Assembly (NCBI GenBank): GCA_945872825.1
Contig: CAMCBD010000027.1
Coordinates: 1-32,829 of the forward strand
Source of the DNA: Nitrosomonas ureae
GTDB taxonomy: Bacteria; Pseudomonadota; Gammaproteobacteria; Burkholderiales; Nitrosomonadaceae
DNA: 32,829 nt
Direction of reading: 5' to 3'
Program-made: the position numbers and the translations under genes
The notes under the pieces: generated by a model
What the model was told of the DNA's origin: nothing
The model's database searches: none
What the model saw: the letters and a program-made list of their open reading frames with translations, nothing else
Shown: positions 1 to 32,547 of the stretch, one piece after another
How the letters are laid out: each line of letters opens with the position of its first letter
How positions within the stretch are numbered: the first letter of the stretch is position 1

Positions 1-78
1 GGTTTCATCGCCCCGTATCGCAGCCAGCGCTATTTTTGCTTTGAATTCACTGGAATATTGTGTGCGTTTCTTGCTCAT
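1..78 (-). CDS. IS3-family transposase OrfA, N-terminal part, cut by window edge
   Basis: The first 26 codons of an OrfA (MSKKRTQYSSEFKAKIALAA...) are identical to the N-terminus of the complete OrfA at 32199-32480. The start ATG is at 78, with AGAGGA eight bases upstream as ribosome binding site. This is the beginning of the helix-turn-helix DNA-binding domain of IS3-type OrfA proteins. The gene continues beyond base 1, so whether this copy is intact cannot be judged. Confidence 0.85.
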   Translation of the reverse strand, partial: MSKKRTQYSSEFKAKIALAAIRGDET

Positions 79-145
79 GATTATGATCCTCTATAGTGTC
101 CATAACAGAGCTTAACAACCTGTCCAGTTTTGCGGTACCACTTCA
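1..145 (-). mobile_element. IS3-family insertion sequence, partial copy (orfA-proximal end)
   Basis: Bases 1-146 are identical to 32403-32548, which is the orfA end of the complete IS3-family element at the other end of the window, in the same orientation. The terminus is at 145, where the element ends in CTTCA (outer end TGAAGTGGT read on the minus strand). The match at base 146 is a chance G. The piece carries the first 26 codons of orfA, its ribosome binding site, a promoter (-10 at 90-95, -35 at 113-118) and the terminal inverted repeat. The rest lies outside the window. The element ends inside hsdR and supplies the stop codon of the truncated gene. Confidence 0.9.
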
Positions 146-2771
146 GAACTTCTCGCCGCTGCCGGCGTGGTGTTGCATGATCCAGCTTTGGAAGTTGCGG
201 CGCACGGTGTCGTCGAAGGGTGTTAGGGTTTTGTCCCAGCCGCATACACGGCGAATCAGTGCGACCAGTGTCGTGAGTTCATTGACTGGATTCCCGCCTG
301 CCTCCCGCCTTCGCGAGGGTGACAGGGAATGGCGGGATTCCAGTTGTTGATACGCCTGCCACACGCGCAGCGGCGCGAGTTTGGGTTTGTCGGCTTTGAG
401 TTTATCCAGCACTTGGCGGATCAGGGCATAGCTGAGTTCACGCCTGCGATACGGCTGGCTAAAAAAGATGGTCAGTGCGGCAATACTGTCTTGATTCGCT
501 TTCAGGTAACCGGCAAATTCATCGGTTAAAGCTTGCGCATTATTGGCGGCGTCTTTATCCCATTCGGCACGCAACACTGTGTCGATGTTGTCGTGGTCGA
601 TGGTTTGTTCCTTGTCGCGGCGGATGGATTCGATGAGTTCAACCAGTTCGCCGTTCAACACTTTCGCAGCTTCAGTCACTAATTGCTGTTGCGCCTGTTG
701 GCGTTTATCGTCGCCGGGATCTGAGCCGATGGGAAGTTTTGCCAGTTCCAACGCACGCGCTTCGATGTTGTCGGCATCGATTGCGCTGAATAATTTGCCG
801 GCAAATTGGGTGAGTTCCATGCCGCCTGCGAGTTCTCGGATACGGCGCTGGTCATCGGTATCGAGTTGTTTGTTGAGCCGCGCCAGGCGACCGGCGAGCG
901 AGCTGACGATATCTTCATCGGTTGCGCCCATCATCACGCTCATCGCCAAATCTTTGAGTGGCACGCTGGGTTTGGTGATCAGCGGCTGGCTGGCGGTCTT
1001 GAGCGATTGGGTGACGCCGATGGCATCCACAATCACATAGTGGGTCTTGGCGCTGACGGCGGAGGGCGTGACTTTTTTCAGGTCGTCTTTATCCAGCGTG
1101 CGCGTGCCACGGCCTTTCATCTGTTCGAAGTAGTTGCGGCTTTTCACATCGCGCATGAACACCAAACATTCCAGCGGCTTGACATCGGTGCCGGTGGCGA
1201 TCATGTCCACCGTGACGGCGATGCGCGGGTAATATTCATTGCGGAATTGCTGCAACACGGACTTGGGATCTTCCTCGGTTTTGTAGGTGAGCTTCTTGCA
1301 AAAGGCGTTGCCCTCGCCGAACTCCTCGCGCACGGTCTGGATGATGTCGTCGGCGTGACTGTCGGTTTTGGCGAAGATCAGCGTCTTGGGCACTTCGCGG
1401 CGGTAGGGAAAAATCTCCGGCAGTTTGTCGCGGAAAGTGCGGATGACGGTGCGGATTTGATCAAGATTGACGATATTGCGATCCAATTGCGTGGCGGAAT
1501 AGGCTTCGTCTTCGTCCTGCATTTCCCAGCGCTTTTTGCGCGTGAGCTTTTCGCGTTTTTCCACCTGTTGCTTGGCAGCGATTTGCACGCCTTGCTGGGT
1601 GATTTGTGTTTCGATCACATAAACTTCGTTACCAACGTTTACGCCATCCGCCACGGCCTTTTCGTGGCTGTAATCGCTGACTACGTTTTTCTTGAAGAAG
1701 CCGTAGGTGCGGTTGTCCGGCGTGGCGGTGAGGCCGATCAGGCTGGCATCGAAATAATCGATGACTTGTTGCCACAGGTTGTAGATGGAGCGGTGGCATT
1801 CGTCGATAAAGATGAAATCGAAAAATTCCGGCGGGACTTTTTCGTTATACACCACGGGCATCGGCGTTTTGGGTAGCGCCAATTCTGCGGGATTAATTTC
1901 TTCGGCGGCATCATCGAGTGGCGTGTCTTTCAGGATCGAATACAAGCGCTGGATGGTGCTGATGCACACTTGGCTATCCTTGGCGACGAAAGAAGATTTA
2001 AGCCGTTGCACGTTGTACAGCTCGGTAAACTTACGGTTATCGTCAAGCGGCACGTAGGACATCATTTCCTGTTCAGCCTGCTCGCCAAGATTTTTGGTAT
2101 CCACCAGAAACAGAATGCGCTTGGCATCCGCATATTTGAGCAGGCGGTAAATAGAGGTGATGGCGGTGTAGGTCTTGCCCGCGCCGGTTGCCATTTGAAT
2201 CAGTGCACGTGGTCGATCTGCCTTAAATGAGACTTCCAGATTGATGATGGCGATTTCCTGACAATCGCGCAGGTGCAATTCCCTCGCGGGCAAATGATTG
2301 GGATTGAGCACCGGAATATGATGCAGATGTTCGCGCAAACTTATACCTTGTGCAATCCATTCCCGCAGCGTTTCCGGGCGATGGAAGCAGAACACTTCAC
2401 GTGAGCGGGGTTTGGGGTCACGACCATCGGTGAAGCGGGTAATAATGCCGGTACTTTGGTAGAGAAAAGGTAACGGTTTTTTGTTATTGATCCACTTGAG
2501 TGTAGCCGCCGCGTAGTCTTCAGTTTGTGTTTCATGCGCAGTGAGCCGCTGACCTTCTTCTTCACGCTTGGCTTCGATTACGCCGATTGCTTTTTTATCC
2601 ACGAAGCACGTAATCCGCCGGACCGGCATCAGTCTGGTATTCGCGCACCGCCTGACCTAACCCAACATTCAGATCGATCTTCTTGGCTGATTGAACAACC
2701 CAGCCTGCTTGCCTAAGCAATGCATCAATGTTGTCACGGGCTTTTTGTTCTGGATTCTGGTTTTCAGTCAT
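143..2771 (-). pseudogene. hsdR: Type I restriction endonuclease subunit R (HsdR), frameshifted and 3'-truncated
   Basis: HsdR is the ATP-dependent translocase and nuclease subunit of type I restriction-modification complexes. The main frame (2629-143, 828 codons) shows the end of the PD-(D/E)xK nuclease core (VIEAKRE, residues 17-23), Walker A MATGAGKT (146-153), the DECH box (276-279), GLTATP, and motif VI around QMKGRGTR. The true N-terminus lies in another frame: ATG 2771 (MTENQNPEQKARDNIDALLR) through GPADYVL, which then runs into a stop near 2597. Joining the frames at about 2605-2612 needs one extra base, giving DYVL-x-FVDKK. At the 3' end the protein stops after GEKF in a TGA belonging to the IS end, so tens of C-terminal residues usual for the family are lost. 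A palindrome at 286-343 adds an in-frame insert. No hsdM or hsdS lies upstream; the other side is hidden by the IS. It is probably non-functional. Confidence 0.9.
286..343. repeat. REP-like palindromic repeat inserted in frame in hsdR
   Basis: CTGGATTCCCGCC at the left is mirrored by GGCGGGATTCCAG at the right (12 of 13 bases pair), with a second internal pairing (CCTTCGCGAGGG). The sequence resembles the dispersed GGATTCCCGCC...GGCGGGAATCC elements common in proteobacterial genomes. Read on the minus strand in the hsdR frame it encodes the peptide SRHSLSPSRRREAGGNP, the typical signature of such a repeat captured in a protein (RHS...GGNP). It sits between a conserved helix (YQQLE) and NELTTLVALIRR and does not break the frame. 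No second copy was seen in this window. Confidence 0.75.
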
Positions 2772-15003: not shown

Positions 15004-15948
15004 TCAGGCCTTCGGTAATGGAAATACAACCGATTCAACAACACCACTTAACTCTTCTATCATCACATCTTCACCGATTTGCTCGGCTCCGATTTGCTTG
15101 AGCCGGGATATCACTTGCTGAACCAATATTTCAGGGGCCGAAGCTCCTGCCGTAATACCGATGATTTTCTTTCCAAGAAACCAGTCTTCTTGCAATTGTT
15201 CGGCGCGATCTACCATATAGGCTTCCACATTGGCATTTCTTGCCACTTCACATAACCGGTTAGAATTTGAACTATTGGGAGAACCCACTACAATGACCAA
15301 ATCGCATTGATCCACCATTTTTTTAACGGCATCCTGACGATTCTGCGTGGCGTAGCAAATATCGTCTTTCTTAGGGCCGGTGATCATAGGAAATCGCCTT
15401 TTCAAAGCATCGACAATGCGTGCAGCATCATCAACTGACAAAGTGGTTTGTGTCACATAAGCCAAGTTGCCCTCGTCCTTAACTTTCAGGGCATCAACAT
15501 CCTTCTCGGTTTCTACCAGATACATCCCTTTGTTCTCACCATCAATTTGCCCCATCGTACCTTCAACTTCCGGATGACCTTGATGGCCGATCATAATGAT
15601 TTCCTTTCCATCCTTGCGCATCTTGGCCACCTCCACATGAACCTTGGTAACCAGCGGGCAGGTCGCATCAAATACCTTCAATTTACGATCTGCAGCTTCT
15701 CGCCGGACAGCATGCGATACACCATGCGCACTAAAAATCAGAATACTATCCTGTGGTACTTCATCCAGATTCTCTACAAAAACAGCACCTTTTTTCTCCA
15801 GATTCTCAACCACAAAACGGTTATGCACAACTTCATGGCGCACATAAATCGGCGCGCCATGCATTGTGAGCGCACGTTCAACAATTTCTATCGCACGATC
15901 CACACCGGCACAAAAACCTCTGGGATTCGAAAGTAGTACTTTGATCAT
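15004..15948 (-). CDS. ispH: 4-hydroxy-3-methylbut-2-enyl diphosphate reductase IspH (LytB)
   Basis: This is the last enzyme of the MEP isoprenoid pathway, reducing HMBPP to IPP and DMAPP with an iron-sulphur cluster. At 314 residues it is full length. The three cluster cysteines are C13 (GFCAGVDRA), C97 (DATCPLV) and C198 ([10 protein letters not shown]). The catalytic glutamate region [11 protein letters not shown] (about 125-135) and the [15 protein letters not shown] block are present. The start ATG has a strong ribosome binding site, GGAGGA, seven bases upstream. In many gamma- and betaproteobacteria ispH sits next to the pil minor-pilin cluster; here only thiO separates them. Confidence 0.97.
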
Positions 15949-16051
15949 TTATTTATCCTCCGACAATGGATATTTTATCTAGACTGAATTCAGTGATAAG
16001 CGCATTCCGCATTCAATATCACAAATCTCAGGCATTGAAATTTAACAGCGT

Positions 16052-17170
16052 TTATATCTCTCGATAGCGTTTTGTCAATGCGACACGTTTTTCATAAGCT
16101 TCCCGTGCAATCTGAATATCTTCCAGAAATTGCGGCAGCTCTCTCATTAGCAGTGCTTGTGGCCCATCGACCAATGCTTTGCTGGGTACCGGATGAAAGT
16201 CGACCAATACCATATTAGCACCAGCTATGACGCCCTGAGCTGTTACATGCATTACGTCCAGAATACCATCCGGCGAGCTTGCGCGAGTACCCACTGAGTG
16301 CGAAGGATCAACACAAACCGGCATACGAGTTAACCGTTTGACAACAGGTACATGCGAAAAATCAACAAAATTACGATGCGGATCACCCATATTTGTTTTC
16401 ATACCGCGCAACCCGAAAACCACTTTGCGATTTCCCTCCGAAGCCAAATACTCTGCAGCATTCAATGATTCATCCAGAGTAATGCCAAAACCACGTTTTA
16501 TCAGTACTGGAAAATTCTGCTGACGGCCAACAATTTTCAGTAGCTCAAAATTCTGTGTATTCCTTGTTCCAATCTGCAGCATAACACCCGTTGCATTACC
16601 CGTCTGATACAGCGCATTACGTATTTCTTCCAAGTGGGACTCATGCGTAATCTCCATCGCGATAACTTTTATGCCGTACTTTCCTGCCACATCAAAAACA
16701 TAAGGAAGGCAGGTTTTACCATGCCCCTGAAATGAATAAGGACTGGTACGAGGCTTATAAGCACCCATCCGCGTACAAACCTGCCCATGATCACGCAATG
16801 CCTTCACCATCATTTCAACGTGTTCAATGGTATCAACCGCACATAATCCTGCGAACACATTCAGGGTATCCTGCCCAAAACGAACGCCGTTATAATCAAA
16901 ATGTGTCGGGCGATCATCATCCTTATGTCGTCCTAAAACACGATATTCCTCAGAAACCCGAACTACCCGGTCGACACAAGGAAGCGAGCTAACATCCTCA
17001 ATAGATAATACTTTAGTGTTACCTATTAAATATATCTCTGTCAGCGCTTGTTCAGTACCCACTTCAGTATGAACACGCGTCGATATCCCTGAAAAATTGG
17101 CAAGATGCGCCAACAACTGTTTATATTCAGGACTATCAAGCCGGGTATTTGGAACAAGGATAAGAATCAT
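16052..17170 (-). CDS. aroF: 3-deoxy-7-phosphoheptulonate (DAHP) synthase, type Iβ
   Basis: The enzyme catalyses the first step of the shikimate pathway, condensing PEP with erythrose 4-phosphate. In the 372-residue product residues 1 to about 75 form the N-terminal ferredoxin-like regulatory domain of the Iβ class. The barrel follows, with FAGLCAVD (C110, metal ligand), GAYKPRTSPYSFQGHG (136-151), IGTRNTQNFELL (200-211), LIKRGFG and CVDPSHSVG (H291, metal ligand). The region LVDFHPVPSKALVDG (322-336) aligns with family VEVHPEPEKALSDG, so the usual Glu metal ligand is Asp324 while the second (Asp335) is kept. The start has no clear Shine-Dalgarno. An 18-bp perfect dyad lies 21-38 bases upstream. 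The paralogue set of the organism is unknown, so the symbol is nominal. Confidence 0.9.
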   Translation of the reverse strand: MILILVPNTRLDSPEYKQLLAHLANFSGISTRVHTEVGTEQALTEIYLIGNTKVLSIEDVSSLPCVDRVVRVSEEYRVLGRHKDDDRPTHFDYNGVRFGQDTLNVFAGLCAVDTIEHVEMMVKALRDHGQVCTRMGAYKPRTSPYSFQGHGKTCLPYVFDVAGKYGIKVIAMEITHESHLEEIRNALYQTGNATGVMLQIGTRNTQNFELLKIVGRQQNFPVLIKRGFGITLDESLNAAEYLASEGNRKVVFGLRGMKTNMGDPHRNFVDFSHVPVVKRLTRMPVCVDPSHSVGTRASSPDGILDVMHVTAQGVIAGANMVLVDFHPVPSKALVDGPQALLMRELPQFLEDIQIAREAYEKRVALTKRYREI

Positions 17171-17476
17171 AAAATAATTTCAAAAAGATAATGCTAATTC
17201 ATTAGCATAAGATAAAATGGCACACGATTCTAACCGAAAAAACCATTGGTTACCATGATTCTGATAAACACTCACGCTGACTAAATCTCTCCAGAACCAG
17301 CGATTCTTCAGCAAAGCTACATAATCAAACAATCTTTAGCACGATAAAAAATAGCACTATGTAGTTGTATGTCATCAATTTACTTCGAAGTCCGCATTAC
17401 GAATAAAATTTCTGACACAGTTATTCAACTCCCCTGAGGCAATTTGCCACATGGCATTTCAAGAGAAATTAAGTTA
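17171..17476. other. Divergent intergenic region DAHP synthase / regB
   Basis: About 300 AT-rich bases lie between two divergent genes. Apart from the dyad at 17191-17208, no gene or structured RNA was recognised. A GAGG (17436-17439) precedes a TTG at 17444 that is in frame with regB and could be its start. Promoters for both genes must lie here, but no convincing hexamer pair was found. Confidence 0.45.
17191..17208. promoter_or_regulatory. Perfect inverted repeat upstream of DAHP synthase, possible operator
   Basis: ATGCTAAT-TC-ATTAGCAT is a perfect 8-bp dyad with a 2-base centre, 21-38 bases upstream of the DAHP synthase start. The symmetry and spacing suit a dimeric repressor site, but the 2-base centre is too short for an RNA hairpin without unpairing. 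No known regulator is matched. Confidence 0.35.
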
Positions 17477-31281: not shown

Positions 31282-31350
31282 TGAAGTGGTCTCCTGCACC
31301 TGTCCAACCTGAGAGTAGAATTAAGCTCTGATATGGGTAGTTAATCAAGC

Positions 31351-32181
31351 TCAGGCAGCCTGATGAATTGCTTGATATTGATAATAAACCTCATTGGGAG
31401 TTTGGTTATCAAGACCTTGATGAAAGCGTTTCTGATTGTACCAATCAAACCACTGAGTCAAATTTTCCCTTACCTCCTTTAAGTCACTAAATGCCCTGGT
31501 GTATAAGAGTTCATACTTTACTGTACGCCATAGCCGTTCAACAAAAATATTATCATGGTAACAACCCTTTCCATCCATGCTGACCTGGACATCTTGATTC
31601 TTCAAAACAGCTATCCATGCTTCGCTGGTGAACTGAGCACCCTGATCGGTATTGAATATCTGCGGACAACCGTGGTCTTGAATGGCAGCCTCCAATGCCT
31701 GAACGCAGAAATCCGCATCCATCGTGTTGGATAAGCGCCAGCTCAGCACCTTACGGGAATGCCAGTCCATGATGGCAACCAAATAGCCAAAGCCTTTTTC
31801 CATCGGCACATAGGTAATATCAGCAGCCCAAACTTGATTAGGCTGGTTTATTACCTTATTTTTGAGCAGGTAAGGATATATTTTGTGTTGCTTAGCCAGA
31901 ATACTAGTTCTGGGCTTGGGCGCTGTGCTGATAATACCTAGAGTCTTCATCATGGATGCTGCTTTCTTGCGACCAATCAGTATCCCCTGACGCAGAAACC
32001 ACGTGGCGTAGCTGCGCGAACCATATTGTGGTGTTTTCAGGTATTGCTCGTCCATCTTTCGTAGCATAACCAGTTCAACATCACTTGCCGATTGAGGCTG
32101 ATAATAATAAGTCGAGCGTGCCAAACCCAGTAAGTAGCATTGGCGAACATGACTCAGTTTGTCGTGGCGCTCAATCATCAT
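31351..32181 (-). CDS. IS3-family transposase OrfB (DDE integrase domain)
   Basis: The 276-residue product has the rve integrase core with catalytic D121 (WAADITYVP), D179 (NTDQGAQFTS) and E215 (NIFVERLWRTVKYE), spaced D-35-E as in IS3. The N-terminal HTH_21 region is VRQCYLLGLARSTYYY. It is probably made mainly as an OrfAB fusion through a -1 frameshift at the end of orfA. Upstream of its ATG the frame reads SQKARSLSTTERK, the normal linker of such fusions. It looks intact and potentially active. Confidence 0.95.
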   Translation of the reverse strand: MMIERHDKLSHVRQCYLLGLARSTYYYQPQSASDVELVMLRKMDEQYLKTPQYGSRSYATWFLRQGILIGRKKAASMMKTLGIISTAPKPRTSILAKQHKIYPYLLKNKVINQPNQVWAADITYVPMEKGFGYLVAIMDWHSRKVLSWRLSNTMDADFCVQALEAAIQDHGCPQIFNTDQGAQFTSEAWIAVLKNQDVQVSMDGKGCYHDNIFVERLWRTVKYELLYTRAFSDLKEVRENLTQWFDWYNQKRFHQGLDNQTPNEVYYQYQAIHQAA

Positions 32182-32198
32182 CTTGCGTTCCGTTGTGC

Positions 32199-32480
32199 TT
32201 AATGATCGAGCTTTCTGACTAAAAAATCGCGTTCCACCGTCAGTTGCCCGATGACACGATGCAAATCATCTGTGGTTTGTCCGTTCTCTTTGCTAGCAAC
32301 GGTATTTCTGGAAAACAACTCAGCCGCCTGTTCAATGAGTTGCCGTTTCCAGCTATTGATCTGTGTGGGATGAATTCCATAACGAGCTGCCAGTTGGGGA
32401 ATGGTTTCATCGCCCCGTATCGCAGCCAGCGCTATTTTTGCTTTGAATTCACTGGAATATTGTGTGCGTTTCTTGCTCAT
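32199..32480 (-). CDS. IS3-family transposase OrfA (helix-turn-helix)
   Basis: The 93-residue DNA-binding protein has a HTH_Tnp_1 domain (SSEFKAKIALAAIRGDETIPQLAARYGIHPTQINSWKRQLIEQA), then a helix with spaced hydrophobics (VIGQLTVERDFLVRK) like the leucine-zipper segment that pairs OrfA with OrfAB. AGAGGA lies eight bases before the ATG. The stop TAA comes just after the slippery sequence that gives the fusion product. Confidence 0.93.
   Translation of the reverse strand: MSKKRTQYSSEFKAKIALAAIRGDETIPQLAARYGIHPTQINSWKRQLIEQAAELFSRNTVASKENGQTTDDLHRVIGQLTVERDFLVRKLDH
32220..32226 (-). promoter_or_regulatory. Probable programmed -1 frameshift site (T TTT TTA) in transposase
   Basis: In the orfA frame the minus strand reads GAT TTT TTA GTC, giving the heptamer T TTT TTA, a consensus -1 slippery sequence. 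Slipping here continues as AGT CAG AAA GCT, giving VERDFL-SQKARSLSTTERK and then OrfB in one frame. IS3 elements usually slip at A6G, so U6A is a variant. No downstream pseudoknot was modelled. Confidence 0.7.
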
Positions 32481-32491
32481 GATTATGATCC

Positions 32492-32520
32492 TCTATAGTG
32501 TCCATAACAGAGCTTAACAA
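32492..32520 (-). promoter_or_regulatory. IS3-family element promoter for orfA
   Basis: On the minus strand TTGTTA (32520-32515), a 17-base spacer and TATAGA (32497-32492) lie just upstream of orfA, with AGAGGA (32494-32489) as ribosome binding site overlapping the -10. The same sequence is present in the left copy at 90-118. If this promoter is correct, the leader would be only a few bases long. Confidence 0.5.
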
Positions 32521-32547
32521 CCTGTCCAGTTTTGCGGTACCACTTCA

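Follow-up and report, generated by a model that had tools for sequence, protein, structure and literature searches.

The window analysed here, 32,829 nucleotides of Nitrosomonas ureae DNA, is the entire contig C27 of a draft assembly (2.76 Mb, 151 contigs, 97.67% complete). Near its left end lies an hsdR gene on the minus strand, which starts with the ATG at 2771, runs down to 143, and is split over two overlapping frames (2595-2786 and 143-2629). In the following, G, L and C numbers denote genomes, fetched loci and contigs, respectively. G000 is the source genome of the window, and G038 is the same as L038 (Nitrosomonas record NZ_JAIEME010000025.1, 106,550 bases). The relevant features are:

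1..145, minus strand: end of an IS3-family element, including the start of orfA (from 78), which runs on past the contig (sequence matches)
143..2629, minus strand: main frame of hsdR, 828 amino acids, with ResIII, Helicase_C and truncated EcoEI_R_C domains (open reading frame and Pfam)
287..334, minus strand: compound CGTC-1-type REP, in frame, 16 codons (sequence and alignments)
2598..2771, minus strand: 5' part of hsdR, codons 1-58 up to frame closure (open reading frames; collinear with the L038 hsdR)
2604..2607, minus strand: frameshift, two bases missing compared with five relatives (alignment)
31282..32547, minus strand: complete copy of the same IS, with orfA at 32199-32480 and orfB at 31351-32181 (transpos_IS3)

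The restriction subunit and its truncation

In Pfam searches with the long hsdR frame, ResIII, EcoEI_R_C and Helicase_C all scored above cut-off. The helicase/translocase motor is present (PF04851, E 2.9e-38; PF00271, E 7.7e-7), whereas EcoEI_R_C aligns only to position 100 of 163, owing to the truncation. The protein resembles type I restriction subunits with an EcoEI_R_C domain and is type IB-like by domain, but differs from them in being frameshifted and truncated and in carrying a REP. Moreover, relatives keep hsdR in an operon with hsdS and hsdM, whereas the window locus has neither. The intact HsdR of G017 scores under the NCBIfam equivalog cut-offs for PRK11448 and EcoAI. The EAK motif in VDKKAIGVIEAK of the window protein is a putative nuclease motif of the typical kind. 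A PDB sequence search with HsdR gave two matches to the motor domain, 3h1t and 7clg, neither of which covers the insert described below, and the structure predicted for the window protein from 28 sequences had low confidence (mean pLDDT 49.8, pTM 0.32).

At about 2605/2606, the window hsdR lacks two bases that are present in all five aligned relatives (L038, L097, L039, L056 and L046; L097 is the N. mobilis record NZ_FMWO01000111.1, 42,454 bases), and the L038 gene passes this point in a single frame. A homopolymer error was rejected as the cause, because the site is not a homopolymer. The original prediction of a frameshift near codon 55 appears, from this alignment, to be correct.

At its other end, hsdR meets the terminus of the IS3-family element at base 145. 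The residues GEKF are followed directly by TGA (145-143), a stop codon that the IS supplies with its first three bases. Relatives read on past GEKF, for 61 residues in G017, G076, G013 and G035, and for 55 residues with an altered end in L038, so that none of these homologues ends naturally at this point and the truncation by an IS, which had also been proposed, holds. The element is assigned to the IS3 family, at family level and without a group, on the basis of its orfA/orfB organization, its rve domain, the transpos_IS3 model and TGAAGTGG at both ends. The complete copy spans 1266 bp, and its orfB scores 252.5 bits against NF033516 (transpos_IS3; cut-off 160). There are at least 40 matches to the element in the source genome (40 of 70 candidates scored). 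Of the 30 matches that could be placed relative to contig ends, 29 sit at a contig end, which is why the contig stops at hsdR. The flanks of the complete copy lack matching short direct repeats, and this could reflect recombination between copies.

The palindrome inside hsdR

The CGTC-1 REPs form a family that includes dRS3 of Neisseria and RPE-6 of Rickettsia, and Di Nocera et al. (2013, PMC3733652) define them by a CGTC tag, a stem, a four-base loop and a CCA-type tail. Single copies that fit this definition in tag, stem, loop and tail are present in G035 and G084, at the same hsdR codon as the insert in the window. The window copy differs in being compound, with the tag CGCC, and exceeds the single G035 REP by 21 bases. 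The palindrome had originally been placed at 286-343, a range that takes in flanking bases which lengthen it; the REP-derived codons are those at 287-334. Compared with uninserted homologues, the insert adds a net 30 bases, or 10 residues.

When six HsdR proteins are aligned, G038, G017 and G076 show an equally long insert at the same codon, G035 has a shorter one, and G013 has none. All 15 pairs of the six genes have dN/dS ratios between 0.074 and 0.103, and purifying selection has therefore acted on HsdR with the insert. For the 18 codons of the insert alone the ratios are higher (0.2-0.8, six pairs), with too few changes to say more. Among the 80 hsdR loci listed, this insert occurs in L038 only, and several others are length-variable at the same spot. 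The REP unit is open in five of its six reading frames.

In-frame REPs inside genes are known, many of them in genes for DNA synthesis and repair (main text of PMC3733652). The palindromic elements of Rickettsia, as presented there, resemble the window insert as palindromes in frame inside a constrained gene, but they belong to a different organism and a different gene class.

Loss of the partner genes and decay of the locus

In related genomes, hsdR is followed by hsdS and hsdM. The order is hsdR, hsdS, fic, hsdM in L038 (with hsdM in two frames), hsdR, hsdS, darT, darG, hsdM in G017 and G035, and hsdR, hsdS, a different cargo gene, hsdM in G076. The slot between hsdS and hsdM thus varies, and can hold a DarT-DarG toxin-antitoxin pair, a Fic protein or another gene (L166 10227-11942; L170 10930-12645; L038 14300-15346; G076, which is L167 reversed). 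The split hsdM of L038, the nearest relative, lies at 15738-17242. Together with the altered hsdR end, this may indicate that the L038 system is also decaying, or that there are metagenome assembly errors in this region. A second palindromic repeat, of the CCCCCTTT/AAAGGGGG type, is in frame in the hsdS linker of L038 (13440-13530), and has matches in G000 on C41, on C4 and at several places around the type I locus of C55 (L132).

A DNA search of the window's own assembly with L038:12380-17300, from the hsdR end to the hsdM end, gave 16 matches. The hsdR end matched C27, the far end matched C114:165-301 (97%), and the other matches were short repeats on C41, C4, C55 and C19. The approximately 4.7 kb of L038 between the two edges had no other match in this draft assembly. 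According to tblastn, the C-terminal 25 residues of HsdM are encoded at C114:166-240, and beyond this stub C114 is collinear with L038 and G017. Apart from these 25 codons, the searches of the assembly detected neither hsdS nor hsdM of this system. The stretch C114:1-164 represents the end of a different element that recurs at C140 and C133 and is presumably IS21-like, judging by its repeated terminal sequence. With the partner genes absent, the locus has therefore lost specificity and methylation as well.

We conclude that the window very probably holds what is left of a type I restriction-modification (R-M) operon that was constrained until recently and now neither restricts nor methylates. 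The dN/dS ratio of 0.074 against G038 suggests that hsdR would have been constrained through most of the time since the two diverged. A CGTC-1-type REP would have entered the part of hsdR that codes for the C-terminal domain, at a position where length varies, and was apparently tolerated there. Later, in this lineage, hsdR would have suffered the two-base deletion, and mobile-element activity would have taken its last 61 codons, hsdS, the cargo and all of hsdM but the last 25 codons, with the IS3-family element at the hsdR-side edge and the different, IS21-like element at the hsdM-side edge. Different elements at the two edges call for a minimum of two events. C27 and C114 would then be neighbours by way of mobile elements, and the gap between them stands open in the draft assembly.

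Two other accounts of the locus have to be considered. The palindrome was originally listed among the lesions of hsdR, and it is indeed real and in frame. That it was a damaging insertion that helped to kill the gene is nevertheless very unlikely. The added residues make the protein longer than its uninserted homologues, but three relatives with an open, constrained hsdR have an insert of identical length at the identical codon, and G035 and G084 have the single REP there. The insert was therefore rejected as a lesion, being inherited, older than the loss of the gene, and tolerated. It had also been suggested that hsdM and hsdS survive beyond the IS, so that the cell could still methylate but no longer restrict. 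In this account, the two genes persist on an unassembled segment between the IS3-family and IS21-like ends, which would agree with a draft assembly that is broken at IS copies and with the different elements at the two edges. However, hsdM is well conserved among relatives (86.6-94.7% DNA identity between L038 and G017 or G076), yet only its 3' end was found, and Pfam searches of the genome gave other type I loci only (C19, C55 and C3, with 25-41% HsdM identity over the aligned segments). The suggestion thus fails in the present assembly, where the search beyond the IS returned edges, short repeats and the stub on C114, and we regard the survival of both genes as improbable. The prediction that the restriction gene itself is lost agrees with the frameshift and the IS truncation. 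A lost hsdR is by itself ordinary, but the inherited REP inside it points to a pattern worth testing.

CGTC-1 REPs in restriction-modification genes of the genus

Near-perfect CGTC-1 REPs (at most one mismatch) number 83 in 32 of 85 genomes of the genus, compared with none for the reversed control. Of these copies, 39 sit in frame within R-M genes, a further 24 are no more than 3 kb from such a gene, and 20 are elsewhere. The R-M genes that hold REPs are hsdR, hsdM, hsdS, type ISP and mod-type genes. By reading of the flanking residues, the 39 in-frame copies fall into about ten sites, and copies at one site are not independent:

HsdM families: four sites, 16 copies
HsdR: two sites, 3 copies
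HsdS linker: one site, 3 copies
Type ISP proteins: two sites, 8 copies
Mod-type methylase: one REP pair, 9 copies

Eight genomes have the most frequent HsdM site in common, with a median dN/dS of 0.078 (range 0.059-0.158, 28 pairs). Some of the REP-bearing R-M frames are fragmentary (L169, L227). In the examples tested, the type ISP, HsdM and mod-type labels agree with Pfam; a mod-type fragment (L202) and another frame (L197) gave no Pfam match, and the remaining labels rest on BLAST matches. The type ISP, mod-type and some HsdM genes joined the reference set because REPs lay in or beside them, and their labels are thus post hoc. In the binomial calculations, the R-M share of the genome (1.2, 3 and 5%) and the figure of 10 of 11 sites are estimates. 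Three frames other than R-M genes carry a REP, namely a 369-residue frame in L267 (internal REP), a 293-residue frame in L238 (which starts at the REP) and a 172-residue frame in L227. The last is on the minus strand, beside type ISP DNA. The L267 frame is the one other plausible gene with an internal copy. Several REPs each are found in the type ISP genes of L228 (2102-7292), L226, L229 and L264; in L229 and L264 they lie in single frames of 1614 and 1718 residues, respectively.

The window's own genome has only two near-perfect REPs, one in frame in the hsdM of C19 and the other on C4 at a distance from any R-M gene, which weighs against a special tie of these repeats to R-M genes. In the C19 type I locus, the space separating hsdS from hsdR is occupied by a gene that resembles REP-associated tyrosine transposases (L130 9530-10165; NF047646, 60.1 bits, under the cut-off of 80).

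Among the integrase-family genes listed for the REP-bearing genomes, 56 in number and putatively of xer type, none has any of the 83 REPs within 10 kb. A sister palindrome with a CCGG stem is present in 36 copies in 28 loci, a non-exhaustive set in which two loci were picked for hsdR and places such as G008, G038:C2 and G056:C1 were left out. Four of these copies are in R-M genes, all in the hsdR of two genomes, 5 are near R-M genes, and 27 are elsewhere. A first enrichment test, superseded by the 83-copy survey, placed 16 of 97 REP clusters within 10 kb of an hsdR place, compared with at most 0.74 expected under random placing. It used 150 REP rows (genomes up to G066) and 53 hsdR-like places from the same range of genomes, each gene being counted by one stretch and matches being taken down to about 1e-9.

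In the literature searched, which covered few subscription papers, we came across no account of a REP concentration in R-M genes. The main text of PMC3733652 is silent on such a concentration, with no occurrence of 'restriction', 'hsd' or 'Nitrosomonas'.

It is conceivable, though rather doubtful, that in Nitrosomonas CGTC-1 REPs lodge in frame, at recurrent sites and mainly in R-M genes, rather than as general intergenic repeats. The chances are about even that they instead hitchhiked, in the sense that mobile R-M genes brought them into a REP-poor genus from REP-rich donors. Nitrosomonas is indeed poor in these repeats (0-11 near-perfect copies per genome), and R-M genes are mobile, so that import from donors may explain much of the pattern. 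Moreover, the 80 hsdR loci listed span many taxa, REPs are present in 8 of them (16 copies at up to three mismatches), and 13 of the 16 copies lie within about 4.1 kb downstream of hsdR. However, L038, the one locus among these 80 that has the hsdR insert, is itself from Nitrosomonas, which suggests insertion within the genus. Furthermore, most REPs are intergenic (PMC3733652, section 15), whereas here nearly half of the near-perfect copies are inside R-M genes.

According to the abstract of PMC3733652, CGTC REPs apparently lack a dedicated transposase. The small set of insertions in a REP-poor genus makes donor, target and frame preference testable. If insertion is aimed at R-M genes, or if copies are kept because they are useful, then the finding that 63 of 83 near-perfect REPs are in, or at most 3 kb from, R-M genes of several unrelated types would tie a mobile palindrome to bacterial immunity genes. 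Retained copies might provide shared homology for the swapping of specificity parts, or hairpins that damp expression. The insert in the window hsdR would then be one such immunity-linked REP copy.
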